Of a DNA stretch of 64,000 bases, positions 1,147 through 27,398 are shown in pieces. Where the stretch lies: the NCBI GenBank assembly GCA_029779535.1, contig JAKPAG010000124.1:62001-126000 (forward strand), written 5' to 3'. The notes under the pieces are model-generated. The model was not told where the DNA came from. It ran no database searches and saw only the letters and a list, made by a program, of their open reading frames with translations. Source of the DNA: Pseudomonadota bacterium (GTDB lineage: Bacteria; Pseudomonadota; Alphaproteobacteria; Sphingomonadales; Sphingomonadaceae). Position 1 is the stretch's first letter, and the number at the start of each line of letters is the position of its first letter. Made by a program: the position numbers and the translations under genes.

Positions 1147-1710
1147 TCAGCGCGGCGGGCCGGCGGGCAGGACGCCTTCGGGCAGCGGCGGTTCGCCGGG
1201 CGCGGCGCCCTGGCCACCCTTGCCGCCCTGCTGCTGCATCTGCTGCAACTGCTGCATCATGCGCTGCTGCGCCTCGATCTCGGCGCGGCTCTTGAAATCG
1301 ATCAGTTCGATTTCGAAGGTCAGATCGGAATTGGGCGGAATGTCGCCCGCGGCTTTGTCGCCATAGCCCAGCGAGGCCGGGATGAAGACCTTGTACTTGC
1401 CGCCGCGCTGCATCTGTTCAAGCGCCTTGGTGAAGCCGGGGATCACCCCTTCGACCGGGAATGCGGCCTGTTCCTGCTGGTCGAACACCTTGCCGTTGGC
1501 CAGCGTGCCCTTGTACTTGATCAGCACCACGTCGGCCACGGTCGGCGAAGCGCCGGCACCGGCCTTGACCACTTCGACCGCCACGCTGGCGGGCTTGGTC
1601 GCATAGGCGAGGCCGCCGGCGGCGAGCGCGGCGGCGGCGATGCCGATCCACAGCTTGGCAAGGGCGCCCTTGGCGATGGGCTGCAGGGGAACGCGGGTAA
1701 TTTCGGTCAT
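1147..1710 (-). CDS. FKBP-type peptidyl-prolyl cis-trans isomerase with N-terminal membrane anchor and Gln-rich tail
   Basis: ORF contains VLIKYKGTLANGKVFDQQEQAAFPVEGVIPGFTKALEQMQRGGKYKVFIPASLGYGDKAAGDIPPNSDLTFEIELIDF, the FKBP core. Confidence 0.92.
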   Translation of the reverse strand: MTEITRVPLQPIAKGALAKLWIGIAAAALAAGGLAYATKPASVAVEVVKAGAGASPTVADVVLIKYKGTLANGKVFDQQEQAAFPVEGVIPGFTKALEQMQRGGKYKVFIPASLGYGDKAAGDIPPNSDLTFEIELIDFKSRAEIEAQQRMMQQLQQMQQQGGKGGQGAAPGEPPLPEGVLPAGPPR

Positions 1711-1738
1711 GCTGGCCTTCCTTGGCGCGCCGGATGCG

Positions 1739-1764
1739 AAAAGGGCGCGGATTCGTCCGCGCCC
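1739..1764 (-). terminator. Rho-independent terminator downstream of rpsU
   Basis: Minus strand GGGCGCGGA-CGAA-TCCGCGCCC-TTTT: perfect 9-bp stem, 4-nt loop, short T tract. Confidence 0.75.
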
Positions 1765-1838
1765 TCATGGCTTATCACGCTTTGGCGTTCAAGCATTCCG
1801 GTGAGGCGAAAACACGCTTTCCGCCTTATCGGCCTGCC

Positions 1839-2045
1839 TTACTTGACGCCGTCGCGTTCCATGCGCTTGCGCTCCATCTTGCGGGCGCGGCGCACGGCAG
1901 CAGCCTTTTCGCGGGCGCGCTTTTCCGACGGCTTTTCGTAGTGACGACGCAGCTTCATCTCGCGGTACACGCCCTCGCGCTGCAGCTTCTTCTTGAGCGC
2001 ACGCAGGGCCTGTTCGACATTGTTGTCGCGGACGAGAATTTGCAT
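1839..2045 (-). CDS. rpsU: 30S ribosomal protein S21
   Basis: 68 aa [68 protein letters not shown]; start placed at the internal Met of the longer ORF. Confidence 0.97.
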
Positions 2046-2350
2046 AAACCGACACACCTCACATACAAAAAGGCCAGAACCCCGCGTTATGCCTGTGCGG
2101 GGGAGCACCCTTTAGATCAGCAACAGAAAGACGGGCCGAATCCACTCGGATCGGCGCGAACCGGCGGGCGGCTAGCAGAGAGTCGGCACCATGGCAAGCC
2201 GGGATGTTCCGGAGGCGGGGGCACTTTTGCCCCGCAGCCCCCTCCGATGTTGCACGAAAGCAGCACCGGATCGGAAGCGACAATGCTTCTTTCGAAGCGC
2301 CTTCGCGGGGTATCCTGCGACAAGCCGCAATCCCTTGGGAGAGATTGCCG

Positions 2351-2713
2351 ATGCATAACAGTCGCAACCGCCGCGCCGCGTCAGTCCACCACGGACCCCG
2401 GCCATCCGGACGCCCCATCGCCGCGCCGCCGGTCATTGCCCTGCCGCAGTTGACCGAAGCACTGCGCCCCCTTCCGCAGCGCAGCACCCTTGCGTCTAGC
2501 CGTCCGGCTGGACTGGCCGCCCAGATCGCCTGGTGGCTGCAAGGCCGCGCCCACGCCTTGTCACGATTGCTGGCGTCCCTGTCCAGAGCAGATCGCCCGC
2601 CCCCCGGGCATCAGGCGGAACTGGACCGGCTGCGCCAGGAAAACACACACCTGCGCGCCCAGCTTGAAGCCCTGCTGGCATTGCGCCCGCAATCGGCAAT
2701 GCCTGACACCTGA
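2351..2713 (+). CDS. Small hypothetical protein with C-terminal coiled-coil-like segment
   Basis: ORF in the intergenic gap; ends ...HQAELDRLRQENTHLRAQLEALLALRPQSAMPDT. No family recognised; start uncertain. Confidence 0.4.
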   Translation: MHNSRNRRAASVHHGPRPSGRPIAAPPVIALPQLTEALRPLPQRSTLASSRPAGLAAQIAWWLQGRAHALSRLLASLSRADRPPPGHQAELDRLRQENTHLRAQLEALLALRPQSAMPDT

Positions 2714-4808: not shown

Positions 4809-6007
4809 GCGAGAACGTTCGCCAGTTCACCGTGGGCGCCGACGATGATGGCGTGCGCCTCGACCGCTGGTTCAAGCGCCACTTGCCGCAGGTCGGCTTT
4901 GCCACGGTCAGTCGCTGGGCGCGCACCGGGCAGATCCGCGTCGATGGCAAGCGCGCCGACGTGGCCGACCGGCTGGCCAAGGGCCAGGTTGTGCGCGTGC
5001 CCCCCGGCGGCGATGCCCCGGACCGCAAGGCCCGCGCCCGCAAGCCGCTGACCGAGGCGCAGATCGCTTTGGCCGAAAGCATGGTGATCACCCAGGATCC
5101 CGCCGCGATCGTCCTGAACAAGCCGCCGGGCCTGGCAACGCAGGGCGGCAGCGGAACCTACGAACATGTCGACGGACTGCTCGACGCCTTCGCGCCTGAT
5201 GGCCCTCGCCCGAGGCTGGTCCACCGACTCGACAAGGACACTTCCGGCGTGCTGCTGATCGCGCGCACTCCGGGCAGCGCGGCATACTTTTCCCGGCACT
5301 TCTCCGGGCGTTCGGCGCGCAAGATCTATTGGGCGCTCATCGTCGGCGTCCCCTCGATCGAGGACGGGTTGATCGACCTGCCGCTGGGCAAGCAGCCAGG
5401 CAGCGGCGGCGAGAAGATGATGGTCGACCAGAGCGAGCACGGGCAGACCGCCCGCACCCGCTACCGCGTGCTCGACCGCGCCGGCAACCGCTGTGCCTGG
5501 GTCGAACTGCAACCGCTGACCGGGCGCACCCACCAGCTGCGCGTGCACATGGCGGCGATCGGCCATCCGATCGTCGGCGACGGCAAGTATGGCGGCCCCG
5601 ATGCCTTCCTGTCGGGCAGCATCAGCCGCAAGATGCACCTGCATGCGCGCCGCCTGATCATCGACCATCCGGACGGCTCCCCGCTCGACGTGGTGGCCGA
5701 GTTGCCCGAGCATTTCGCCGCCAGCATGGCGCAGCTCGGCTTTGACGAGGAACTGGGCGCGGAACTGCCCGATCCGCCCAAGCTGGATGCGCGCACCGCC
5801 GCGAAGCAGGCAGCCAAGGCCCATGCCAAGCAGCTGCGCAAGGAACACCGGGGCGAACGCCGCAGCCGGGGCAAGTCGGACCTGCCCAAGGCCCCGGGCA
5901 AGCCGCCCGCCAAGAAGCGCGGCCCGACCAAGGGCAAGGGCTCGCCCGTGCCCGCTGCTAAGCGGCCGCCCGCCAAGCGTCCATCCGGCAAGCCGAAACC
6001 GCGCTGA
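4805..6007 (+). CDS. RluC/RluD-family 23S rRNA pseudouridine synthase with long basic C-terminal tail
   Basis: S4-like N-terminus and PRLVHRLDKDTSGVLLIART, LQPLTGRTHQLRVHMAAIGHPIVGD motifs; ATGA overlap with crcB. Confidence 0.93.
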   Translation: MSENVRQFTVGADDDGVRLDRWFKRHLPQVGFATVSRWARTGQIRVDGKRADVADRLAKGQVVRVPPGGDAPDRKARARKPLTEAQIALAESMVITQDPAAIVLNKPPGLATQGGSGTYEHVDGLLDAFAPDGPRPRLVHRLDKDTSGVLLIARTPGSAAYFSRHFSGRSARKIYWALIVGVPSIEDGLIDLPLGKQPGSGGEKMMVDQSEHGQTARTRYRVLDRAGNRCAWVELQPLTGRTHQLRVHMAAIGHPIVGDGKYGGPDAFLSGSISRKMHLHARRLIIDHPDGSPLDVVAELPEHFAASMAQLGFDEELGAELPDPPKLDARTAAKQAAKAHAKQLRKEHRGERRSRGKSDLPKAPGKPPAKKRGPTKGKGSPVPAAKRPPAKRPSGKPKPR

Positions 6008-6624
6008 TGCATCCCAGCCAGTCCTTCCGCTTTTCCGGCACCGAGGGTGAGCGGCGCGAGCTGCTGGAAACGATGCTGGACGAGATCGGCTTCGGCATGA
6101 TCTTTGCCCAGACACCGGACGGCCCGCGCGTGGCGCACACGCCGCTGATCTCCACCGGTGACGGCGCCTTGCAGTTTCACCTGTCGCGCGGCAACGCCAT
6201 GGCCAAGTATCTTGACGGGATGACCGTGCTGGCCGTGATCAATGGCCCGGACGGCTATGTCAGCCCGCGCTGGTATGCCGATCCGCAGCAGGTGCCGACC
6301 TGGAACTACGTCGCGCTTGAACTCGAAGGGCGGGTGCGGCGGCTGGGCAGCGAAGCGCTGACCGCCTTGCTCGAGGACCTGTCCACTCGCCACGAAGCGC
6401 GGATCGAGGAAGGCGAGCCCTGGACGCTGGACAAGCTGCCGCCGGAAAAGCTGCGCGCCATGCTGGCGGGGATCGTCGGCTTCGAACTGGAAGTGCAGGT
6501 CTGGCGCGAAACGCTCAAGCTCAGCCAGAACAAGCCGGCCGAGGAACGCGCCCGACTGGCCGATGGGCTGGAAAGCGAAGGCAGCCCGGCGATCGCGTCG
6601 ATCATGCGGAGCCTGGCGCCATGA
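6007..6624 (+). CDS. FMN-binding negative transcriptional regulator family (PaiB-like)
   Basis: MHPSQSFRFSGTE...FGMIFAQTPDGPRVAHTPLI...LQFHLSRGNAMAKYLDG...VINGPDGYVSPRWYADPQQVPTWNYVALELEGRV, PaiB-type. Confidence 0.88.
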   Translation: MHPSQSFRFSGTEGERRELLETMLDEIGFGMIFAQTPDGPRVAHTPLISTGDGALQFHLSRGNAMAKYLDGMTVLAVINGPDGYVSPRWYADPQQVPTWNYVALELEGRVRRLGSEALTALLEDLSTRHEARIEEGEPWTLDKLPPEKLRAMLAGIVGFELEVQVWRETLKLSQNKPAEERARLADGLESEGSPAIASIMRSLAP

Positions 6625-7274
6625 CCGTGCGGCTGGCTGTGTTCGATTGCGACGGCACCTTGGTCGACGGCCAAGCGGGGGTGTGCCACGCGATGGAGCA
6701 GGCCTTTGTCGAAACCGGCCTGCCCGCGCCCGACCGGCACCAGGTGCGCCGGATCGTCGGGCTGAGCCTGCCGCAAGCGATCCGCCTGCTCGCCCCTGAG
6801 GCGGACGAGGAACTGCGCACCGAGATCGACCGGCAATACCGCGCGATCTTCCGCGCCGCACGCGAGGCCGGACAACTGGTCGAGCCGCTCTATGACGGCA
6901 TCCGCGAGTTGCTCGATGCCCTGCTGGCCGATGGCTGGACGCTGGGCGTAGCCACCGGCAAGAGCGACCGGGGGCTGGAACACTGCCTGGCGAGCCACGG
7001 CCTCTCGCGCCATTTCCTGACCCTGCAGACCGCCGACCGTCACCCGTCCAAGCCGCATCCGTCAATGCTCGACGCGGCGCTGGCCGATGCTCTGGCCGCG
7101 CCCGACCAGGCCGTGATGATCGGCGATACCCAGTACGACATGGCCATGGCGGTCAATGCCGGGGTGCGCGCGCTGGGGGTGGACTGGGGCTATCACACCA
7201 CTGCCGAACTGCACGATGCCGGGGCCCAGGCCGTGGCCACCAGCCCCGCACACCTGTTGGAGCTGCTGGCATGA
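6621..7274 (+). CDS. HAD-superfamily hydrolase (phosphoglycolate phosphatase-like)
   Basis: VFDCDGTLVDGQAGVCHAMEQAF...GVATGKSDRGLEHCL...VMIGDTQYDMAMAVNAGVRALGVDWGYH, HAD motifs I-IV. Confidence 0.92.
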   Translation: MTVRLAVFDCDGTLVDGQAGVCHAMEQAFVETGLPAPDRHQVRRIVGLSLPQAIRLLAPEADEELRTEIDRQYRAIFRAAREAGQLVEPLYDGIRELLDALLADGWTLGVATGKSDRGLEHCLASHGLSRHFLTLQTADRHPSKPHPSMLDAALADALAAPDQAVMIGDTQYDMAMAVNAGVRALGVDWGYHTTAELHDAGAQAVATSPAHLLELLA

Positions 7275-16764: not shown

Positions 16765-18480
16765 TTAACGACCCTGCGCGCGCCAGCGCTGGACGGTGCG
16801 CAGGACCATTTCCTCCTCGCCGCCCGAGTTCGACCAGAGCTGGCTGATCGACGGGTCGGCGCTGGCCGGGCGCTTGAATTCCTCCAGCTCGTCGAACGCG
16901 ACGCGGATCGGGATCGACACGCCTTCGCCGCAGATGATGCATTCGCGGTTGCGCAGGGCGGGAATCGAATCGAGGAAGCCGCGCGCCCCTTCGGGCATGG
17001 CCGCCTTGACGAAGGCCTGGTCGCGGTCGTTGTTGAGGCGCATCGAAATGATCGTGCCGCACTGCGACAGCACGCCTTCGGCCAGGTCCGACGGGCGCTG
17101 CGTGATCAGCCCCAGGCTGACCCCGTACTTGCGGCCTTCCTTGGCGATCCGGCTCAGGATCTTGCCGACCGAGGACCCATCGGCATTCTTCTCGTTCGGT
17201 ACGTAGCGGTGCGCTTCTTCGCAGACCAGCAGCACGGGCCGGGTCTTTTCATCGCGCGCCCAGATCGCGAAGTCGAACACCATGCGGCTGAGCACCGCGA
17301 CCACGGTGGACGTAATGTCCGAGGGCACGCCCGACACGTCGATGATCGAGATCGGCCTGCCCTTGCTGGGCATGCGGAAGATCTTGGTGATGAATTCGGC
17401 CATCGTATCGCCGACCAGCATGCCCGAGAACATGAACTGGAAGCGCGGATCGGCCTTGAGCTCGTCGATCTTGGTCTTGATCCGCATGTAGGGCGCGCTG
17501 CTCGTCGCCTTGTCGAGCTTGCCCATTTCGGTCTGGATCAGGTTGGTCAGGTCCGACAGCAGGTAGGGGATCGGGCTGTCGACCGTGATCTTGCCCATGC
17601 TTTCGGCCAGCCGGTTCTTCGACCGCGCCTGGAGCAGGCACTTCGAGAGGATGTCGGCATCCTCCTGGCGGTCGTTGCCGGTGGTGGTCAGGAACACTTC
17701 GCAGTGTTCCTCGAAATTCATCAGCCAGTACGGCATCTGCAGGTTCGACACGTCGAAGATCATGCCGGTCTGCTTGAACGCGGCGCTGTATTCGCCGTGC
17801 GGGTCGATCATCACGATATGCCCTTCGGGGGCATGTTCGCAGATCCGGTGCAGGATCAGCGCGGCGCTGGTCGACTTACCCGTACCGGTTGAGCCGAGCA
17901 GGGCGAAGTGCTTGCCCAGCATCGAATCGATGTACAGCCCGGCGCGGATGTCGCGCGTGGGGAACACGGTGCCGACCTGGATCGAGCTGCGCCCGTCGCT
18001 GGCATAGATCTGGCGCAGGTCGTTGCTGGTGGCCGGATAGATCAGCGCGCCGGGAATCGGATAGCGCGTCACGCCGCGGCGGAAGCTGTGGATGCGCCCG
18101 GTCAGCCGTTCCTCGTCGCCTTCGCCCAGGAAGTCGATGTTGGCCATGATCCCGCCGGGGGTCTTGCTGTCCTGCTTCTGTGTGCGCACGCTGGCCAGCA
18201 GCCAGCTCTTGCCGACCCGGATCTTGACCTGGCTACCAACCTGCCCGGCCAGCGCGACCGAGGGATCGTGATCGCCTGAACATTCCTGCAGGCGTTGCAG
18301 ATCCAGCGCAATGGCAGAGCCCGAACCGGCAATTTCCAGCACGATCCCAATGGGTTCGCGGGCATTGTCAAAGTCCTGCGCGGCAGCCTCTGCCGCGGCT
18401 GCATCCGGTTGGGCCACGTGCCCCGCCCCAAAGCCCTTGTGGCTCATGTTGTCCATTGCGCGTCTAATCCCTTGCGCCAA
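16765..18480 (-). CDS. HerA-like (DUF87) ATP-binding protein
   Basis: LLGSTGTGKSTSAALILHRI (Walker A), HIVMIDPHGEY, VLLVCEEAHRYVPNE (Walker B), EGRKYGVSLGLITQRPSDLAEGVLSQCGTIISMRLNNDRDQ; HAS-barrel-like N-terminus. Confidence 0.9.
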   Translation of the reverse strand: MAQGIRRAMDNMSHKGFGAGHVAQPDAAAAEAAAQDFDNAREPIGIVLEIAGSGSAIALDLQRLQECSGDHDPSVALAGQVGSQVKIRVGKSWLLASVRTQKQDSKTPGGIMANIDFLGEGDEERLTGRIHSFRRGVTRYPIPGALIYPATSNDLRQIYASDGRSSIQVGTVFPTRDIRAGLYIDSMLGKHFALLGSTGTGKSTSAALILHRICEHAPEGHIVMIDPHGEYSAAFKQTGMIFDVSNLQMPYWLMNFEEHCEVFLTTTGNDRQEDADILSKCLLQARSKNRLAESMGKITVDSPIPYLLSDLTNLIQTEMGKLDKATSSAPYMRIKTKIDELKADPRFQFMFSGMLVGDTMAEFITKIFRMPSKGRPISIIDVSGVPSDITSTVVAVLSRMVFDFAIWARDEKTRPVLLVCEEAHRYVPNEKNADGSSVGKILSRIAKEGRKYGVSLGLITQRPSDLAEGVLSQCGTIISMRLNNDRDQAFVKAAMPEGARGFLDSIPALRNRECIICGEGVSIPIRVAFDELEEFKRPASADPSISQLWSNSGGEEEMVLRTVQRWRAQGR

Positions 18481-18551
18481 ATCACGTTTGGCTGCGCCGG
18501 GGTTAGGACCGGGACGGTTAACATCGTGCTAAATTCAGGCTGATCCGCTGA

Positions 18552-19304
18552 CTAGACCAGCGCGAACAGTCGCCCGGCCAGGAAGCCCATGGCGACCGAA
18601 ATCACCACGGCCAGCAGGCCATAGAGGAAGCCGTAGTGATCGGCGAACTGGGCCGTCGCCCGTTCGAAGCCGGTCTTCTTCACCTCGACCCGGCTGAGTG
18701 CGGAGGCAACCACGCGGCCCTGGGTGATGGCAAAGGTTTCGGCCGTGTAAGTGCCGGTCTGGACGCTGGACGGCAGGGCAATGCGCGCCTGGTAGAGCAC
18801 CTGTTCGGACACTTTCACCCCGCGGGGATCGTCCTGGTACAGCCCGTTACGACGCATCAGATCGACCAGCCCGGCGGAAAAGCGGGCCTGTTCCTTGGGT
18901 TCATAGGTCCCGACAGGCGACAGTTGCAGCCAATCGAGGCCCAATTCATAGATCGCGGCGGTCTTGTCATCGACCAGCTTGTCGATCGGGCGGGACGAAG
19001 CCACCGCGAAGAAGCTGGGGGCAGAACGAAATTCGGTGCTGACGGCATTGACCCAGATCCCGGCGATCCGCTGCTTTTCGCGCAGCACGATCGACTGGGT
19101 CGGCCCCTTCAGCACCACGACAATGTCATAGTCCTGGCCGGCGCGCTGCCCTTCCGGCGTCAGGATCGCGCCGAACAGCAGCAATTCCGCGCCCTTGAAC
19201 CCCTGGCGCACCTGGATTTCGTGCTGCGACACTTCCGGCACCAGGATCGGATCGCGCGCGCCGGTCAGGAAAATCAGCGCCAGGATCAACAGCAGCCGCT
19301 TCAC
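18552..19304 (-). CDS. TIGR02186 family membrane-anchored protein
   Basis: MKRLLLILALIFLTGARDPILVPEVSQHEIQVRQGFKGAELLLFGAI...YDIVVVLKGPTQSIVLREKQRIAGIWVNA; C-terminal TM; adjacent to a TSUP gene. Confidence 0.8.
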   Translation of the reverse strand: MKRLLLILALIFLTGARDPILVPEVSQHEIQVRQGFKGAELLLFGAILTPEGQRAGQDYDIVVVLKGPTQSIVLREKQRIAGIWVNAVSTEFRSAPSFFAVASSRPIDKLVDDKTAAIYELGLDWLQLSPVGTYEPKEQARFSAGLVDLMRRNGLYQDDPRGVKVSEQVLYQARIALPSSVQTGTYTAETFAITQGRVVASALSRVEVKKTGFERATAQFADHYGFLYGLLAVVISVAMGFLAGRLFALV

Positions 19305-20221
19305 AGCAGGTCCACCGTATAGATCTCGTCCGGGCGCCAGCCCAGGCCGAGCGCCATGCGCAGCGCGATCACCAGCACGATCGCCGCCAGGATGAAGCGC
19401 AGCCGCTCCGCCGGCAGCTTCTGCGCCAGCTGCGCACCGATCTGCGCGCCCGAAACCGAACCGATCAGCAGCAGGACCGCCAGGACAATGTCGACCGCCT
19501 TGGTGGTCAGCGAATGCATCATGGTCGTGGCCATGGTGACGAACAGGATCTGGAACAGCGACGTGCCAACCACCACGTTCGCGCTCATCCCCAGGATGTA
19601 GAGCATCGCCGGGACCAGCACGAAGCCGCCGCCGATCCCCATCAGCATGGTCAGGATGCCGGTGAACACCCCCAGCAGCAGCGGCGCGAGCGGCGAGATG
19701 TACAGGCCCGAGCGATAGAACCGCCAGCGCAGCGGCAGGCTGGCAACCATCGGGTGATGCCGCCGCTTGCGCGCGGGCAGTGGCACGCCGGATTTCTGCG
19801 CCTGCAGGGCCTGCCAGCTTTCCCGCGCCATGATCGTCCCGATCGAGCCGAGCAGCACGACATAGAGCACGTTGATGACGATATCGATCTGGCCAAGCTG
19901 CTGGAGGAGGCGGAACAGCACAGCGCCCATGCCCGTGCCGATGATCCCCCCGGCCACCATCACCCCGCCCATCTGGTAATCCACCCCGCCGCGGCGCGAA
20001 TGGGCGAAAACGCCGGAAACGCTGGCCCCGGTAACCTGGCTGGCGGCCGATGCGGCGGCGACCGTGGGCGGGATGCCATAGAAAATCATCAGCGGCGTGG
20101 TCAGGAACCCGCCGCCCACCCCGAACATGCCCGACAGGATGCCCGTCAGCGCGCCAAGCGCGACGATCACCAGGCCGTTCACCGACAGGTTGGCGATGGG
20201 CAGATAGACGTCCATGTGCAA
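19301..20221 (-). CDS. TSUP-family (TauE/SafE) anion permease
   Basis: IVALGALTGILSGMFGVGGGFLTTPLMIFYGIPPTVAAASAASQVTGASVSG ... GVFTGILTMLMGIGGGFVLVPAMLYILGM, two copies of the TSUP GxxxGxxGxGGG motif. Confidence 0.93.
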   Translation of the reverse strand: MHMDVYLPIANLSVNGLVIVALGALTGILSGMFGVGGGFLTTPLMIFYGIPPTVAAASAASQVTGASVSGVFAHSRRGGVDYQMGGVMVAGGIIGTGMGAVLFRLLQQLGQIDIVINVLYVVLLGSIGTIMARESWQALQAQKSGVPLPARKRRHHPMVASLPLRWRFYRSGLYISPLAPLLLGVFTGILTMLMGIGGGFVLVPAMLYILGMSANVVVGTSLFQILFVTMATTMMHSLTTKAVDIVLAVLLLIGSVSGAQIGAQLAQKLPAERLRFILAAIVLVIALRMALGLGWRPDEIYTVDLL

Positions 20222-20266: not shown

Positions 20267-21442
20267 CTAGAAACCTGCGGAAACGGTCAGCGCCGGGCCA
20301 CTTTCCGGCGCGGCCCCGCCCGCGATGCGAAAGCGCCAGTCCGCCGACAGCCGCCCGCCGCCGGTTCCCAGCGGGAAGCCAAGCGTGGCACTGGGTCCGG
20401 CATCGATCCGGCTTGCCCCCTGCTGCGCCCCGCCCCAGGCCCCGCCACCGGCGCGCAGCTCGGCCCGGCCGAACCGGGCAATCGGCCGCTCAACGCGCAA
20501 CTGGCCTTCGGCGAAAGGCGTGGCGAACCGTCCGCCGACATAACCGGCGGCGGCATAGCTTTCGGCCCGGAAACCGCCCGGCAGGGGCAAGGGCGGAAAT
20601 TCGCTGACCAGCAGCGCGGCCGGGCGCAGCGCGCTGCCGCTGGCCAGCCGGGTTACCCGCAGTTCCGCCAGGGCCGCCACCGGCAGTCCCTTGACCGGAC
20701 GCAGCGACAGGCCGGCGGCCAGCTCCTCGTCATGCGGCGCACGCACGGCGGCGCTTACGCGCAGGTAGGCTGCCGGGCGCAGTCCGGACGACGGGGCCAG
20801 GCGATAGCGGATCACGGCCCCGGCCTGGCTGGCGCCGTAACTTGCCGGTGCGCCGCCCACAGCGCCCGCGCCGCTGCCGCCGCGCCGCAGCAGCAGCCAG
20901 CCATCGGCGGAGAAGCGCGCTGCCTTTGCCTCGGGCGACCTGGGCAGGTCTGCCGGGGCTGGCCCGGCGGGCGACGCAAGCCGCGCTTCGGGCGGCAGCG
21001 GCAACTGCGCCAGCGCGGCCAGCCACAGCATCTGGTGCCCGCCAGCCAGGCGCGGGTTGCCGAAGCGGGGATCAGCCGGCGGCGCGATCGGATCGACCCG
21101 CGGCCTGGGTTCGGCAATCGGCGCCGGCGCAAGCGGCTGCCCGGCCAGATCGCCGGGCCGCTCGGTCCCGGCTTGCCGATCGGGCCGCGCGGGCACGGCG
21201 GGCGGGGCGGCAAGCGCCGATGGGACCGGCGCGGTGAGAGCGGGGGCAAGGCCCTGCGCGGCCAGTTCGGCCGCGGTCGCATCGGCTGGCAGCCGCGATG
21301 GCGCCGCGGCCAGTCCGGGCGCATCCGGCGTGGCCCTGTGGGTTGCCGCCGCTTCCAGCATCCAGGTGCGCGCGCCCACCCAGGTGACCAGCAGCAGCGC
21401 AAGAGTGATGACGGGCTGGCCGCGCGATCCGGTGCGCTTCAT
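20267..21442 (-). CDS. NfrA-like protein: N-terminal hydrophobic segment, Pro/Ala-rich linker, C-terminal NfrA_C-like beta domain
   Basis: C-terminal ...RFGRAELRAGGGAWGGAQQGASRIDAGPSATLGFPLGTGGGRLSADWRFRIAGGAAPESGPALTVSAGF resembles the NfrA C-terminal domain; 4-nt overlap with NfrB-like glycosyltransferase. Confidence 0.65.
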   Translation of the reverse strand: MKRTGSRGQPVITLALLLVTWVGARTWMLEAAATHRATPDAPGLAAAPSRLPADATAAELAAQGLAPALTAPVPSALAAPPAVPARPDRQAGTERPGDLAGQPLAPAPIAEPRPRVDPIAPPADPRFGNPRLAGGHQMLWLAALAQLPLPPEARLASPAGPAPADLPRSPEAKAARFSADGWLLLRRGGSGAGAVGGAPASYGASQAGAVIRYRLAPSSGLRPAAYLRVSAAVRAPHDEELAAGLSLRPVKGLPVAALAELRVTRLASGSALRPAALLVSEFPPLPLPGGFRAESYAAAGYVGGRFATPFAEGQLRVERPIARFGRAELRAGGGAWGGAQQGASRIDAGPSATLGFPLGTGGGRLSADWRFRIAGGAAPESGPALTVSAGF

Positions 21443-22854
21443 GCCCGGACCTCCTGCAGGACGGCACGGGCCGGATGGCCGGCGTGTTCGGTCTTGTCCC
21501 AGACCACCTGGCCGCCCACCAGCGAGCGCAGATAGGCCAGCAGCGCGCGCCGCCCGGCCATAATCGCAATGACATTGCCCACCGGAATCCGCAGCACCGA
21601 CCGCAGCGCCTCGACCGCGCCGTATTCGCGGCCGGTGAACAGCGCCCGGCTGGCGGCGCGCCAGACGAAGCCGAGCGAGCTGGCGATCAGCATCACGCGG
21701 ACCGGCCCGGACAGCGCCAGCACCGCATCGATCCCCAGCGCCCAGTCGCACAGGAACAGGACTGCATCGATTGCCAGCAGCAGATAGGCCGCGCCCAGCA
21801 CCAGCGCGGTCAGCGGACCGCGCCGGTCACGCAGGGCCATCCACAGTTCGACCGGGCGGAACTGCCAGCCAAGCCGGTCCCAGCCCTGGAAGGCAATGCC
21901 GTGGACCCAGCGGGTCTTCTGGCGCACCGCCGAAGCCAGGGTGGCGGGAAAATAGCTCGACGTGGCAACCAGGTCGCCCTGGGCATCGCGCAGCCGCAGA
22001 AAGGCGCTGCCCCGCCCTTCCCGCGACAGCTCGATCCCCAGTTCGTAATCCTCGGTCAGGCATTCCGGCGCGAAGGGCCCTTCGCCGCCTTCATCCAGCC
22101 GGCGTTCGGCCAGGCGCTGCATCGCGCCGCGTGAAAAGCCGCAGCCGACCCCCGCCGCCGGCAGCGGCGCACCCAGCGCATTGCGGACCACCAGCGCCTT
22201 GGCGTGGCTTTCGGTGAATTCATCGGCATAGTGGCCGCCGATCCAGCGGGAATCGGCCTGGATCAGCGGGCGGACCGGCAGCTGCACGAAATCGACCGCA
22301 CCCAGCGCCGCGTCGATTGCCTGCAGGGCGGCCGGATGCACCATGTCTTCCGCGTCCTGCAGGACCACGCCGCGAAAGGGCTGGCCGGCGCGGACTTCGT
22401 CATCGCACATCGCCCGGTAAAGACGGTTGAGGCAATCGGCCTTGGTCGTCGGGCCGGCCACGCCATGCACCACCAGCCGCACGCGCGGATCCCAGCCTGC
22501 CCCTTCCATCGCTGCGGCCAGCGTGACGCTGTCATTGCGGTAGCACCCCACATAGAGCCGCAGTTCGCGCTGCGGCCAGGCGGCCAGGGCGTGGGCGATA
22601 GTGGCGCCGATCACCCCGGCTTCGCGGTAGGCCGGGATCAGCACGGCAACGGGGCCATGCAACGGATCAGCGCCATAGCCCTGGGGCAGGCGCTGGGTCC
22701 GCGCCCGCCCGGTCAACCGCAGCCAAAGGTAGGTAAGGTCGATCGCCAGTTCATCGATCAGCCCGACCACGAACCAGAACGCCGCAAAGATCAGCAACTC
22801 GCGCTCGCACGTGGCAAGCGCAATCAGCAGTTGCGTGATCCATTCCTGCGTCAT
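21439..22854 (-). CDS. NfrB-like membrane glycosyltransferase (GT2, processive type)
   Basis: PVAVLIPAYREAGVIGATIAHAL...VVLQDAEDMVHP (DxD-type), ECLTEDYELGIEL (TED), AVRQKTRWVHGIAFQGWDRLGW (QxxRW); N-terminal and C-terminal TM segments. Confidence 0.85.
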   Translation of the reverse strand: MTQEWITQLLIALATCERELLIFAAFWFVVGLIDELAIDLTYLWLRLTGRARTQRLPQGYGADPLHGPVAVLIPAYREAGVIGATIAHALAAWPQRELRLYVGCYRNDSVTLAAAMEGAGWDPRVRLVVHGVAGPTTKADCLNRLYRAMCDDEVRAGQPFRGVVLQDAEDMVHPAALQAIDAALGAVDFVQLPVRPLIQADSRWIGGHYADEFTESHAKALVVRNALGAPLPAAGVGCGFSRGAMQRLAERRLDEGGEGPFAPECLTEDYELGIELSREGRGSAFLRLRDAQGDLVATSSYFPATLASAVRQKTRWVHGIAFQGWDRLGWQFRPVELWMALRDRRGPLTALVLGAAYLLLAIDAVLFLCDWALGIDAVLALSGPVRVMLIASSLGFVWRAASRALFTGREYGAVEALRSVLRIPVGNVIAIMAGRRALLAYLRSLVGGQVVWDKTEHAGHPARAVLQEVRA

Positions 22855-22946
22855 TCTGGCGAGAGACCCCGTTCGTCACCCTCTTCGCCAAAACCTTAAA
22901 GGATTAGTAATTCATTACAACGCGCTTTCTATGGTTACGGCCAAGT

Positions 22947-24722
22947 TCACACTCCCGGTGCCGCGCAGGGCACCAGGAACGGCAGCAATTGCTGGCCAAC
23001 GCTCTTGGCGGCGGAATCGAGCCGGCTGCTGGCGTTGATCCCACCCGGCAGGGCCCCGCCCAGCACCACGTTGATCGCGTTCAGTCCGGGCAGGTCGTAG
23101 ATCTGGATCTGCGCCTGCGCCGGATCGCGGAACAGGTGGGCGAACCAGTCCGTCAGCGCCTGCGGGGTCAGCGCGGCGCGGATCGCGGGGAGGTAGGCCG
23201 GATCGCGCGCGATCACGCCGACGTTGACCGTCTCGCCCTTTTCGCCGCTGCGCGTGAAGGCGATCTTTTCGAGCGGCACCAGGGCGCCGCCCGGTGCGGG
23301 CAGTTCCGGCACCGGGGGACGGCTGGTGATGCTCAGCGGCACGCCCGCCGGGCCGCGATCCGGGCAAGGCTGCGGCGTGCCATCAAGGTCGACCAGCGCC
23401 GTCACGCTTTCACGCGGGATCAGGAAGGCGACCATGTGCAGCACCGGGCTGATCCCGGCGAAGGGCACAATGCTGGTGCCCGGCGCCATGCCGCACATCT
23501 GGGCGTGGAGTTCATAGGCGAACAGCCCCGCGCTCTGCTGCGTTTCGAAATCGGCGCTGATCTTGAGCAGGATCTCCATCACGCTGTCGGGATCGGGGGC
23601 ACGCGCGCCGACGCTTTCGCCTGAACCGATCAGAATCGCTTCCTTGGTCAGGAAACCGGGCATGTTGCGTTCCCGCAGCAGGGCGGCACCGCGATCGAAG
23701 TGGGCCTGCGCCTGCTTCTTCGCCTTGGCGATCGCGCGCGGGCCAATCACCGGCTGGTAGGAGGTGACCCGCCAGCCCTGGTCGAAAGTGGCGCAGACCT
23801 TCAGTGTCGGGGTGCGCGGATGCCCTTTCATGCCCGTCACCAGCACCCGGTCCTTGCCCTGCTGGGTCATGGTCACCTGGGTGAAGTCACAGACCACGTC
23901 GGGCACGATGTAGGCCTGCGGATCGCTGGTTTCATAGAGCAGCTGCTCCGAAACGGTGCCCACGGTGACCAGGCCGCCGGTGCCCTCGCCCTTGGTGATG
24001 ACGCAAGTGCCATCGGCGTGGCATTCGGCGATCGGGAAGCCGATCCGGTCCCAGCCTTCGACCTGGTCCCAATCGGTATAGGTCCCGCCGGTGGCCTGGG
24101 CCCCGCATTCGATCAGGTGGCCAACCAGCGTCCCCGCCGCGATCAGGTCCCACTGGTCCGCCTGCCAGCCGAACCGGTTGATCAGCAGCCCCAGCGCCAG
24201 CGCCGAATCGACCACGCGCCCCGTCACCACGATATCCGCCCCGCCGGCCAGCGCCGCCGCGATGGGGAAGCCGCCGAGATAGGCGTTGATGCTGGTCACC
24301 CCGGTTTGGGGCAGCACGTCATCGCCCTCGATGCCCTTCAGGCCCGCAAATTCGCCCACCCGGTCCATCAGGCAGTCCCCGGCCACCGCAGCGACCTTGA
24401 GGTTGAGGCCGCGCCGCGCGATCTCCTCGCGCAGGCGGGCGGCCAGGGCGAGCGGGTTGACCCCGCCGGCATTGCTGACGATCTTCGTCCCGCGGCGCGC
24501 GATCTCGTCGAGGTGGGGGCCGATGTAGCGGGTGATGAAATCCGCCGAATAGCCCATTGCCGGATCGGCCGCGCGCATCCGCCCGAACAGGCCCATCGCC
24601 CCTTCGGCCAGGAAATCCATGATGATCGCATCGACCCCGGCGGCCAGCAACTGCGGCACCGCGGTGATCGAATCGACCATGAACCCGCCGCCGCCGCCAA
24701 TGCGATAAGTATCTTGCGCCAT
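22947..24722 (-). CDS. AtuA family (acyclic terpene utilisation, DUF1446) protein
   Basis: YRIGGGGGFMVDSITAVPQLLAAGVDAIIMDFLAEGAMGLFGRM...TKIVSNAGGVNPLALAARL...ADIVVTGRVVDSALALGLLINRFGW, DUF1446 signature. Confidence 0.9.
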   Translation of the reverse strand: MAQDTYRIGGGGGFMVDSITAVPQLLAAGVDAIIMDFLAEGAMGLFGRMRAADPAMGYSADFITRYIGPHLDEIARRGTKIVSNAGGVNPLALAARLREEIARRGLNLKVAAVAGDCLMDRVGEFAGLKGIEGDDVLPQTGVTSINAYLGGFPIAAALAGGADIVVTGRVVDSALALGLLINRFGWQADQWDLIAAGTLVGHLIECGAQATGGTYTDWDQVEGWDRIGFPIAECHADGTCVITKGEGTGGLVTVGTVSEQLLYETSDPQAYIVPDVVCDFTQVTMTQQGKDRVLVTGMKGHPRTPTLKVCATFDQGWRVTSYQPVIGPRAIAKAKKQAQAHFDRGAALLRERNMPGFLTKEAILIGSGESVGARAPDPDSVMEILLKISADFETQQSAGLFAYELHAQMCGMAPGTSIVPFAGISPVLHMVAFLIPRESVTALVDLDGTPQPCPDRGPAGVPLSITSRPPVPELPAPGGALVPLEKIAFTRSGEKGETVNVGVIARDPAYLPAIRAALTPQALTDWFAHLFRDPAQAQIQIYDLPGLNAINVVLGGALPGGINASSRLDSAAKSVGQQLLPFLVPCAAPGV

Positions 24723-24846
24723 GCGCCTGCCTCTCCAATTATGTTTGCCACAGGCCAGCACACGCGGTGGCGGCCGGCATCACCCGTTTGGATGATGACC
24801 ACATTCCCGCCCCGCGCAAGTCTGCGAGTCTGACGGGAGAGCGAAC

Positions 24847-25692
24847 ATGGCCGAAGACGCCTATCTTTATCGCGGCGTGAACCAGCTGCCGACCATGAGC
24901 AGCGTGCTGGTATCATCGTCGAAATACCTCAATTCGCCCAAGCTGCGCGACTGGGTGGCGCGCTCGCAATTGAAGAAGGGCGGCCTCGATTTCCCCGGCC
25001 CGGCCGAGATGTACGAGTTGCTGCCGATCCTGGACGAGCTGCGCGACTTCGACCGGATCGAGGCGCTGTTCCACGAAGAACGCCGCACCAATCCCCGGCT
25101 GGACCAGTGGATCGGCGAAAGCTTCGTTTCGAACTACAAGCTGGAAGACATGGCCGGACTGCCGCGCGAATCGGTTGGCGGCATCCTTTACGCCGCGTGC
25201 ACGGCGGGCAATTACGGGCTCCAGATCGTGCCATGGACCCAGCCGAAAACCCAGTGGCAGTTCTTCAACATGCGCGCCGGGCAAACCCACGATTTCGAGC
25301 ACATCCTGTGCGGTGGGGGCTTCAATTACCTGGGCGAACTGCTGCCCTACTGGATGCGCCTTGCCAGCATCCACCGCTTCATCGAGAACGAGGAACTGGT
25401 GGGCGAGATCAACGTCCTGTCGATCTTCGGCATGACCCGCATCCTGACCCGTTCCGTGCTGCACTATCCCGCGATCTGGCCCAAGGTGATCGAATGCATC
25501 GAGCACGGCCTGGCGATCGGTCGGCAGAGCGGGCCGATCTGGATGGCGAAGATGGAGGACATCTGGCACCTGAGCGTGCCCGAGGCCCGCGCGGCGCTGG
25601 ACATCGTCGGCGCGGCCGACATCGAAAGCGAAACCGAAGGGCTGATCTACGAAGGCAAGCTGCCCTACCCGCTGCCCAAGGCTGCCGAGTAA
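24847..25692 (+). CDS. COQ4-family protein
   Basis: Contains HDFEHILCGGGFNYLGE, which exactly fits the COQ4 metal-binding motif HDxxHx11E; remaining sequence all-helical, no other domain. Confidence 0.75.
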   Translation: MAEDAYLYRGVNQLPTMSSVLVSSSKYLNSPKLRDWVARSQLKKGGLDFPGPAEMYELLPILDELRDFDRIEALFHEERRTNPRLDQWIGESFVSNYKLEDMAGLPRESVGGILYAACTAGNYGLQIVPWTQPKTQWQFFNMRAGQTHDFEHILCGGGFNYLGELLPYWMRLASIHRFIENEELVGEINVLSIFGMTRILTRSVLHYPAIWPKVIECIEHGLAIGRQSGPIWMAKMEDIWHLSVPEARAALDIVGAADIESETEGLIYEGKLPYPLPKAAE

Positions 25693-25715
25693 GCCCGGCT
25701 CCGCCCAGGCGGCGG

Positions 25716-25732
25716 ACCGGCGCGGCGCCGGT
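25716..25732 (+). terminator. Short hairpin ACCGGC-GCGGC-GCCGGT followed by TTCGGTT after the COQ4-like gene
   Basis: 6-bp perfect stem 24 nt after the stop codon, followed by a T-rich stretch. Confidence 0.4.
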
Positions 25733-25774
25733 TTCGGTTGCCTTTGCCGTGCCTTGCGGCGAATGCTTCGGGCC

Positions 25775-26962
25775 ATGACCCAGCCGCGCCATCCGCTCTC
25801 CCGCCTTGCCACTGCCCTCGCCCGCCTGCTGCATGGCGAGGCGGGTGCGGGCCTGCTGCTGATCGCGGTAGCAGCGGCGGCGATGATCGCGGCCAATTCG
25901 CCGCTGGCCCATGGCTATCACGCGGTGTTCCACGGCGAATGGGCGTGGAGCCCGGTGGCCAAGCTGAACACGCTGCACCTGTGGATCAACGACGCGCTGA
26001 TGGCGCTGTTCTTCTTCGTGGTCGGGCTGGAGATCAAGCGCGAGGTGCTGGACGGTGAACTGTCCAGCCCGGCGCGGCGGCGGCTGCCGGTGCTGGCGGC
26101 GGCGGCGGGAATGGCCATGCCCGCGCTGGTCTATCTGGCGGTCACGCGCGAAGTCCCGGCGCTGCACGCTGGCTGGGCAATTCCCGCCGCCACCGACATT
26201 GCCTTTGCCCTGGGGGTGCTTGCGCTGCTGGGCAGCCGCATACCGCCATCGCTGCGGTTGTTCCTGCTGACCGTGGCGATCGTCGACGATCTGGGCGCGG
26301 TGGCGATCATCGCGCTCGCCTATACCGGCGGGATCAGCCTGCCGTGGCTGGCCGGTGCGGGCGCGCTGCTGGCCGTGCTGGCGGCGTGCAATGCGCGCGG
26401 GGTGACCAGCGGCTGGATCTATGCCCTGCTTGGCGCCGCGCTGTGGTTCGCGGTGCTGCATTCGGGCGTCCATGCCACGGTCGCAGGCGTGCTGGCGGCG
26501 CTGTGCGTGCCGCTGCGGCTGGACGGGCACGGCGATAGCCCGCTGCTGCGCATGGAGCACGCACTGGCCCCGTTCAGCGCCTATCTGATCGTGCCGCTGT
26601 TCGGCTTTGCCAATGCCGGGGTGGCGCTGGCCGGGATCGGCCCGGATGGGCTGGCCGCTGCGCTGCCGCTGGGCGTGGCGCTGGGGCTGCTGCTCGGCAA
26701 GCAGGCCGGCGTGCTCGGCGCGATCTGGCTGGCGCAGCGGCTGCGCCTGGCCGAACCGCCCGCCGGGGCCACCTGGACCCAGCTTTGGGGCATGGCCCTG
26801 CTGTGCGGGATCGGCTTCACGATGAGCCTGTTCATCGGCCAACTGGCCTTCCCCGGCCAGCCCGTGCTGGTCGAGGAAGCCAAGCTGGGCGTGCTTGCCG
26901 GATCGCTGCTTTCGGCGCTGGCGGGCTACGCCGTGCTGCGCTGGGCCCGCCCGGCACGCTGA
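25775..26962 (+). CDS. nhaA: Na+/H+ antiporter NhaA
   Basis: [35 protein letters not shown]-type N-terminal motif ([35 protein letters not shown]), [42 protein letters not shown]. Confidence 0.96.
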   Translation: [395 protein letters not shown]

Positions 26963-26963
26963 C

Positions 26964-27398
26964 TCACCAGGTTCCGGTGTTTTCCATGCTGGCCCAGGGT
27001 TCCTGCGGCGGCAGGTGCCCGTCCTGGAGCAGTTCGACCGAGATTCCGTCCGGCGTCTTGACGAAGGCCATGTGGCCATCGCGCGGCGGACGGTGGATGA
27101 TGTGCCCCGCGGCCATCAACGCGGCGCAGGTTTCGTAGATATTGTCCACCCGGTAGGCGAGGTGGCCGAAATTGCGGGCCCCGGCATAGGTTTCGCCCGC
27201 GCCGTCCTCGCTCGGCCAGTTGTAGGTCAGTTCCACTTCGGCCACCCCTTCATCGCCGGGCGCGGCGAGGAAGATCAGAGTGAAGCGGCCCTGCTCGCTG
27301 GAAAAGCGCTTCACTTCCTTCACGCCGATCAATTCGAAGAAGGCGATCGTCGCTTCGGGATCGGTGACGCGGATCATGGAATGGAGAAACTTGGTCAT
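26964..27398 (-). CDS. VOC-family protein (glyoxalase I-like)
   Basis: MTKFLHSMIRVTDPEATIAFFELIGVKEVKRF...AEVELTYNW...NFGHLAYRVDNIYETCAALMAAGHIIHRPPRDGHMAFVKTPDGISVELLQ. Confidence 0.9.
   Translation of the reverse strand: MTKFLHSMIRVTDPEATIAFFELIGVKEVKRFSSEQGRFTLIFLAAPGDEGVAEVELTYNWPSEDGAGETYAGARNFGHLAYRVDNIYETCAALMAAGHIIHRPPRDGHMAFVKTPDGISVELLQDGHLPPQEPWASMENTGTW

Follow-up and report, generated by a model that had tools for sequence, protein, structure and literature searches.

The 64-kb stretch of DNA analysed here (the window, whose numbering is used for all coordinates of the locus) comes from a member of the Sphingomonadaceae, referred to below as the host family. On its minus strand lie a gene for a glycosyltransferase (GT) and, directly after it, a gene for a partner protein with an N-terminal membrane helix, a linker and a C-terminal beta-barrel domain (Table 1). 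The original prediction had described both open reading frames and their 4-nt overlap, and we confirmed that the gene pair is real: the GT carries the QDAEDM, TEDYELG and QKTRW motifs, the partner ends in GGAWGGAQQGASRIDAGP...SGPALTVSAGF, and the overlap arises because the partner start sits on an ATGA that contains the GT stop. Of 120 distinct relatives, 112 have the partner start codon at precisely -4, and 19 columns are invariant among 44 aligned partners, showing that the pairing is more than chance.

Table 1. Positions of the gene pair and of the partner domains in the 64-kb window.
Feature	Position	Strand	Basis or remark
GT2 glycosyltransferase, processive type, 471 aa, NfrB-like without MshEN	21439-22854	-	NF011307, Glyco_tranf_2_3, NfrB alignment
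Overlap of GT stop with partner start, ATGA, 4 nt	21439-21442	-	112/120 distinct relatives alike
Partner protein, 391 aa: membrane helix, linker and NfrA-type beta-barrel	20267-21442	-	undescribed family
Conserved transmembrane helix, partner residues 9-34 (GQP...W-x3-R), probably an uncleaved inner-membrane anchor	21341-21418	-	predicted model, conservation
Pro/Ala-rich, poorly conserved, predicted disordered linker, partner residues 35-175, with a short helix at 130-145	20918-21340	-	pLDDT mostly <60
Predicted 12-stranded outer-membrane beta-barrel, partner residues 177-391, NfrA C-terminal homologue	20270-20914	-	predicted model and hhalign

Directly downstream of the pair, genes for TauE, an Alph_Pro_TM protein and a HerA-like ATPase (16765-20221, minus strand) form a trio that is conserved in most relatives read. 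These usual neighbours were considered as parts of the system and rejected, as they are absent beside the pair in two of the stretches read (L100 and L101). On the other side, nhaA is separated from the GT by two ORFs (22947-25692), one of them an AtuA-like gene of 604 aa, and in several relatives nhaA directly adjoins the GT. An ORF at 25409-27079 (minus strand) that seemed to be conserved upstream proved to be a shadow of plus-strand nhaA. A CtrA-type box upstream of the GT was also rejected, with 8 of 118 regions matching at one mismatch versus 5.0 expected from shuffles, which is no excess. About half of 117 upstream regions contain TTGCAAG/C at about -90 to -45 from the GT start, in many cases with TAGGCT-like letters after it. 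This motif resembles a promoter element for the pair, and its counterpart in the window is TTGTAA, perhaps at 22915-22920.

The GT belongs to an already named family, NCBIfam NF011307, a fact absent from the original prediction. It scored 552.3 bits against a cut-off of 431, with GT residues 5-463 aligned to positions 4-453 of the 464-position model, and also matched Pfam Glyco_tranf_2_3 (E 3e-35) and, marginally, a cellulose synthase model (E 2e-4, 19 bits). The NfrB equivalog model gave only 260 bits, against a cut-off of 1170. Alignment to E. coli NfrB showed 34% identity over 463 aa, including the GT2 features of NfrB (DxD-type, TED and QxxRW motifs), and reached as far as a WDKTxH motif that follows the GT domain and membrane helices. 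The GT is thus homologous to NfrB over the entire GT domain, catalytic motifs included. The GT ends 16 residues past WDKT, whereas E. coli NfrB continues for 272 more residues that include its MshEN domain.

As proposed from the sequence, a Pfam search of the GT found no MshEN cyclic di-GMP domain, a domain that scores 52.9 bits in E. coli NfrB and 39.1 bits in a canonical alphaproteobacterial NfrB (L084). A local loss or frameshift of MshEN, which had been raised as a way for the prediction to fail, does not account for this absence, because nearly all of the host family has the short GT. Residues after WDKT vary in number between loci (272, 157, 87, 29 and 10), so that loss of MshEN is not unique to the clade with the short partner. 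MshEN-less NfrB homologues have indeed been counted before, 1,705 of 1,841 homologues carrying the domain (PMC8669469). Elsewhere in the same genome, an ORF of 1100 aa (L091 4379-7681, G000:C98) has a second, weak GT2 match with 35% identity and E 1e-7.

For the partner, resemblance of the C-terminus to NfrA held at the level of profiles but not as a direct Pfam match. The protein had no match in Pfam or NCBIfam at E<=1, 44 members of its family gave only scattered single-member chance matches to these libraries with NfrA_C (PF13283) never among them, and an NfrA_C search of the whole source genome found nothing. When a profile of the partner C-terminal domain was compared with 1,916 ORFs, however, the best match beyond its own family was a protein from another host-family genome, G042, that we call the bridge (E 2e-7), followed by canonical NfrAs (E 0.07-0.2). 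With the bridge left out, hhalign aligned the partner barrel with NfrA over 216 columns (probability 95.7, E 9e-9, score 63.6), versus scores of at most 17.8 for 60 column shuffles and at most 14.8 for reversed profiles. On this profile-level evidence, the ~215 C-terminal residues of the partner are homologous to the C-terminal barrel of NfrA, and the possibility that the domain would model as something unrelated to NfrA_C was not borne out.

Structure prediction gave the C-terminal part of the partner as a beta-barrel of 12 long strands (residues 177-389, pLDDT mostly 85-96), and the protein is accordingly a predicted outer-membrane beta-barrel. Sequence searches found no solved structure for the GT or for the partner. 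The PDB folds closest to the partner model were outer-membrane barrels including BrkA, LpxR, a designed 12-stranded barrel and NanC, a 12-stranded barrel that passes small sugars. For a canonical NfrA (L073), the C-terminus modeled as TPR-like helices followed by 12 strands, and the best PDB fold for this barrel was BcsC, with FapF and AlgE also among the top matches. The L073 barrel (1486-2385, minus strand) thus has 12 strands in our model versus 16 in the published description of the E. coli NfrA model (PMC8669472).

These folds bear on whether the partner is an exporter at all. It could be an outer-membrane enzyme or receptor that acts on the glycan while the chain exits via another channel, a role that would suit a barrel with many near-invariant polar residues, given that 12-stranded barrels include enzymes and that LpxR is among the best folds. 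We regard this as improbable, since the barrel is homologous to and colinear with an NfrA barrel whose closest fold is a cellulose exporter and whose top folds extend to AlgE, and since the synthase gene is paired with the barrel gene at a fixed 4-nt overlap.

No TPR was found by Pfam search in the partner or 44 relatives, as the original prediction had stated. Among 39 relatives, mean pairwise identity was 47% for residues 6-32, 21% for the linker and 52% for the barrel, and the length of the linker ranged from 104 to 187 aa. G8, P10, W21 and R25 are near-invariant in 44 sequences, and [WYF]x3R is retained in 112 of 112 partner sequences. As a control, the neighbouring Alph_Pro_TM protein showed 31% identity in its signal peptide versus 62% in its mature part; the comparison for the partner, on a set as divergent as this control, gave 31% versus 40%. 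The proposed N-terminal anchor is conserved, unlike an ordinary signal peptide, and we read these results as pointing to an anchor that stays on the protein and probably touches the GT.

The same exporter could also be built with an ordinary signal peptide in place of this anchor, in which case cleavage would leave the mature partner as an unanchored outer-membrane barrel whose loose tail lies in the periplasm, linked to the GT by another protein or by none. The helix looks the part in its position and basic N-terminus, canonical NfrA carries a signal sequence (PMC8669469), and an A-x-A-like triplet follows the helix in 19 of 39 relatives, which keeps cleavage in contention. We think this version unlikely, though not negligible, because conservation of the helix almost matches that of the barrel, with the near-invariant residues and [WYF]x3R motif given above, whereas the plain signal peptide of the Alph_Pro_TM neighbour lacks such conservation. 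No common cleavage motif was seen among the partners.

The suggested survey of sphingomonad genomes found the two-gene unit to be widely conserved: of 201 host-family genomes, 183 have the GT and 169 have the partner. In a sample of the class, the partner occurred only in the four host-family genomes and in 0 of 285 others, and the nine non-family genomes with a GT match all also have NfrA_C. Among the best 80 of 335 records with the partner, the named ones are from Novosphingobium, Erythrobacter, Altererythrobacter, Croceibacterium and other Sphingomonadales, together with some loosely labelled metagenome bins. A search for plasmid copies of the partner returned one weak match only, and a search for phage copies, with the 50-residue partner N-terminus as the only query, returned none.

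A GT tree of 30 rows placed the GTs that have short partners in one clade, and possession of the short partner requires a single change (support 99/95). The bridge GT of G042 lies next to TPR systems from outside the host family, and this locus may have moved between lineages by transfer. The feature peculiar to the short-partner clade is the partner and not the loss of MshEN. The best reading of the homology and architecture seen here is that the pair is a lineage-specific remodelling, in one clade, of an Nfr synthase/exporter.

Two genomes in which the pair is damaged are informative about its function. In G030, from the same genus as the source, a decayed copy (L092 6834-9076) has TEN for TED and DAAD for DAED in the GT, and its partner ORF stops about 100 residues past the helix. 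In G075 the GT was not found and the partner remains only as a 98-residue piece. GT and partner thus decay together, which supports a joint role. The copy in G030 and the absence of domains found in NfrA and NfrB could also be taken to mean that the pair is a functionless Nfr remnant in decay. We give this very little credence, as the pair is intact and constrained in most of the host family with its catalytic motifs retained, and such family-wide conservation contradicts it.

Genomes that lack a good WecB match tend to lack the GT as well (10 of 14 versus 7 of 175 genomes, Fisher p 1e-9) at a cut near 1e-48 that was chosen after looking; at a cut of 1e-30 set beforehand, the figures were 5 of 8 versus 12 of 181 (p 2e-4). 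Because some of the genomes in this sample, all at least 90% complete, are close kin (two genera contribute three each), the association counts as support and not proof. In the Nfr system, UDP-ManNAc is supplied by WecB/NfrC. In the source genome, a WecB-like gene lies beside one for a WecC-like dehydrogenase, unlinked to the pair. The likeliest substrate of the GT would be UDP-ManNAc or a close relative.

We favor, with fair but far from full confidence, the explanation that the pair represents an Nfr-type synthase/exporter in remodelled form, in which the partner tethers an outer-membrane pore to the inner-membrane synthase. The GT would polymerise sugar in the inner membrane and hand the chain to the periplasm, while the partner helix would stay uncleaved in the same membrane beside it. 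The periplasm would be crossed by a flexible linker, some 100-190 residues long, and the predicted 12-stranded barrel in the outer membrane, if wide enough for a polymer, would be the exit for the chain. An extended chain of at least 104 residues is longer than the periplasm is wide, and the linker would take over the tethering done by TPR repeats in NfrA, BcsC and PgaA. Cyclic di-GMP would not be expected to control the GT as it does in E. coli, since the unit has no MshEN or PilZ domain. The stronger form of this proposal, that one polypeptide spans the envelope as a synthase-binding helix, a disordered leash and an export barrel without any periplasmic scaffold, seems to us evenly poised between right and wrong.

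If the proposal is true, this is a near-universal surface-glycan system for a large family of bacteria from soil and water, for which we came across no earlier account of such a system based on this gene pair. Literature searches returned nothing on the pair in sphingomonads and nothing on a one-chain envelope-spanning barrel, both of which are weak evidence of absence. The pair would offer a natural minimal case for asking how TPR scaffolds contribute to Nfr, cellulose and PGA export, and an outer-membrane barrel anchored in the inner membrane would pose a question for the outer-membrane assembly machinery. The E. coli Nfr machine makes a sugar coat used by phage N4, and the sphingomonad system would offer a candidate phage receptor.

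Compared with the E. coli NfrB-NfrA-YbcH system, the pair shares the GT2 motifs and their order, the overlap of GT and barrel genes, and a homologous C-terminal barrel. It differs in having neither MshEN nor TPR, and where E. coli NfrA begins with a signal peptide and TPR, the partner has its N-terminal helix and linker instead. No YbcH-like (DUF4434) gene was found among the neighbours scanned, where the next genes are TauE and Alph_Pro_TM; YbcH itself does score for DUF4434. The G042 bridge locus (L093 3788-6846) is alike in its GT without MshEN, its 4-nt overlap and its NfrA_C-type barrel, but its partner (5233-6846, 537 aa) has a TPR-like region and matches Pfam NfrA_C at 43 bits against a cut-off of 25. 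The NF011307 entry, which covers the PRK14716-type short GTs and includes our GT by score, describes only a glycosyl transferase and says nothing on a partner or mechanism. Finally, the BcsA/BcsC and Pga systems for cellulose and poly-GlcNAc likewise combine a processive GT with an outer-membrane barrel, but they use TPR scaffolds where this pair has a linker.
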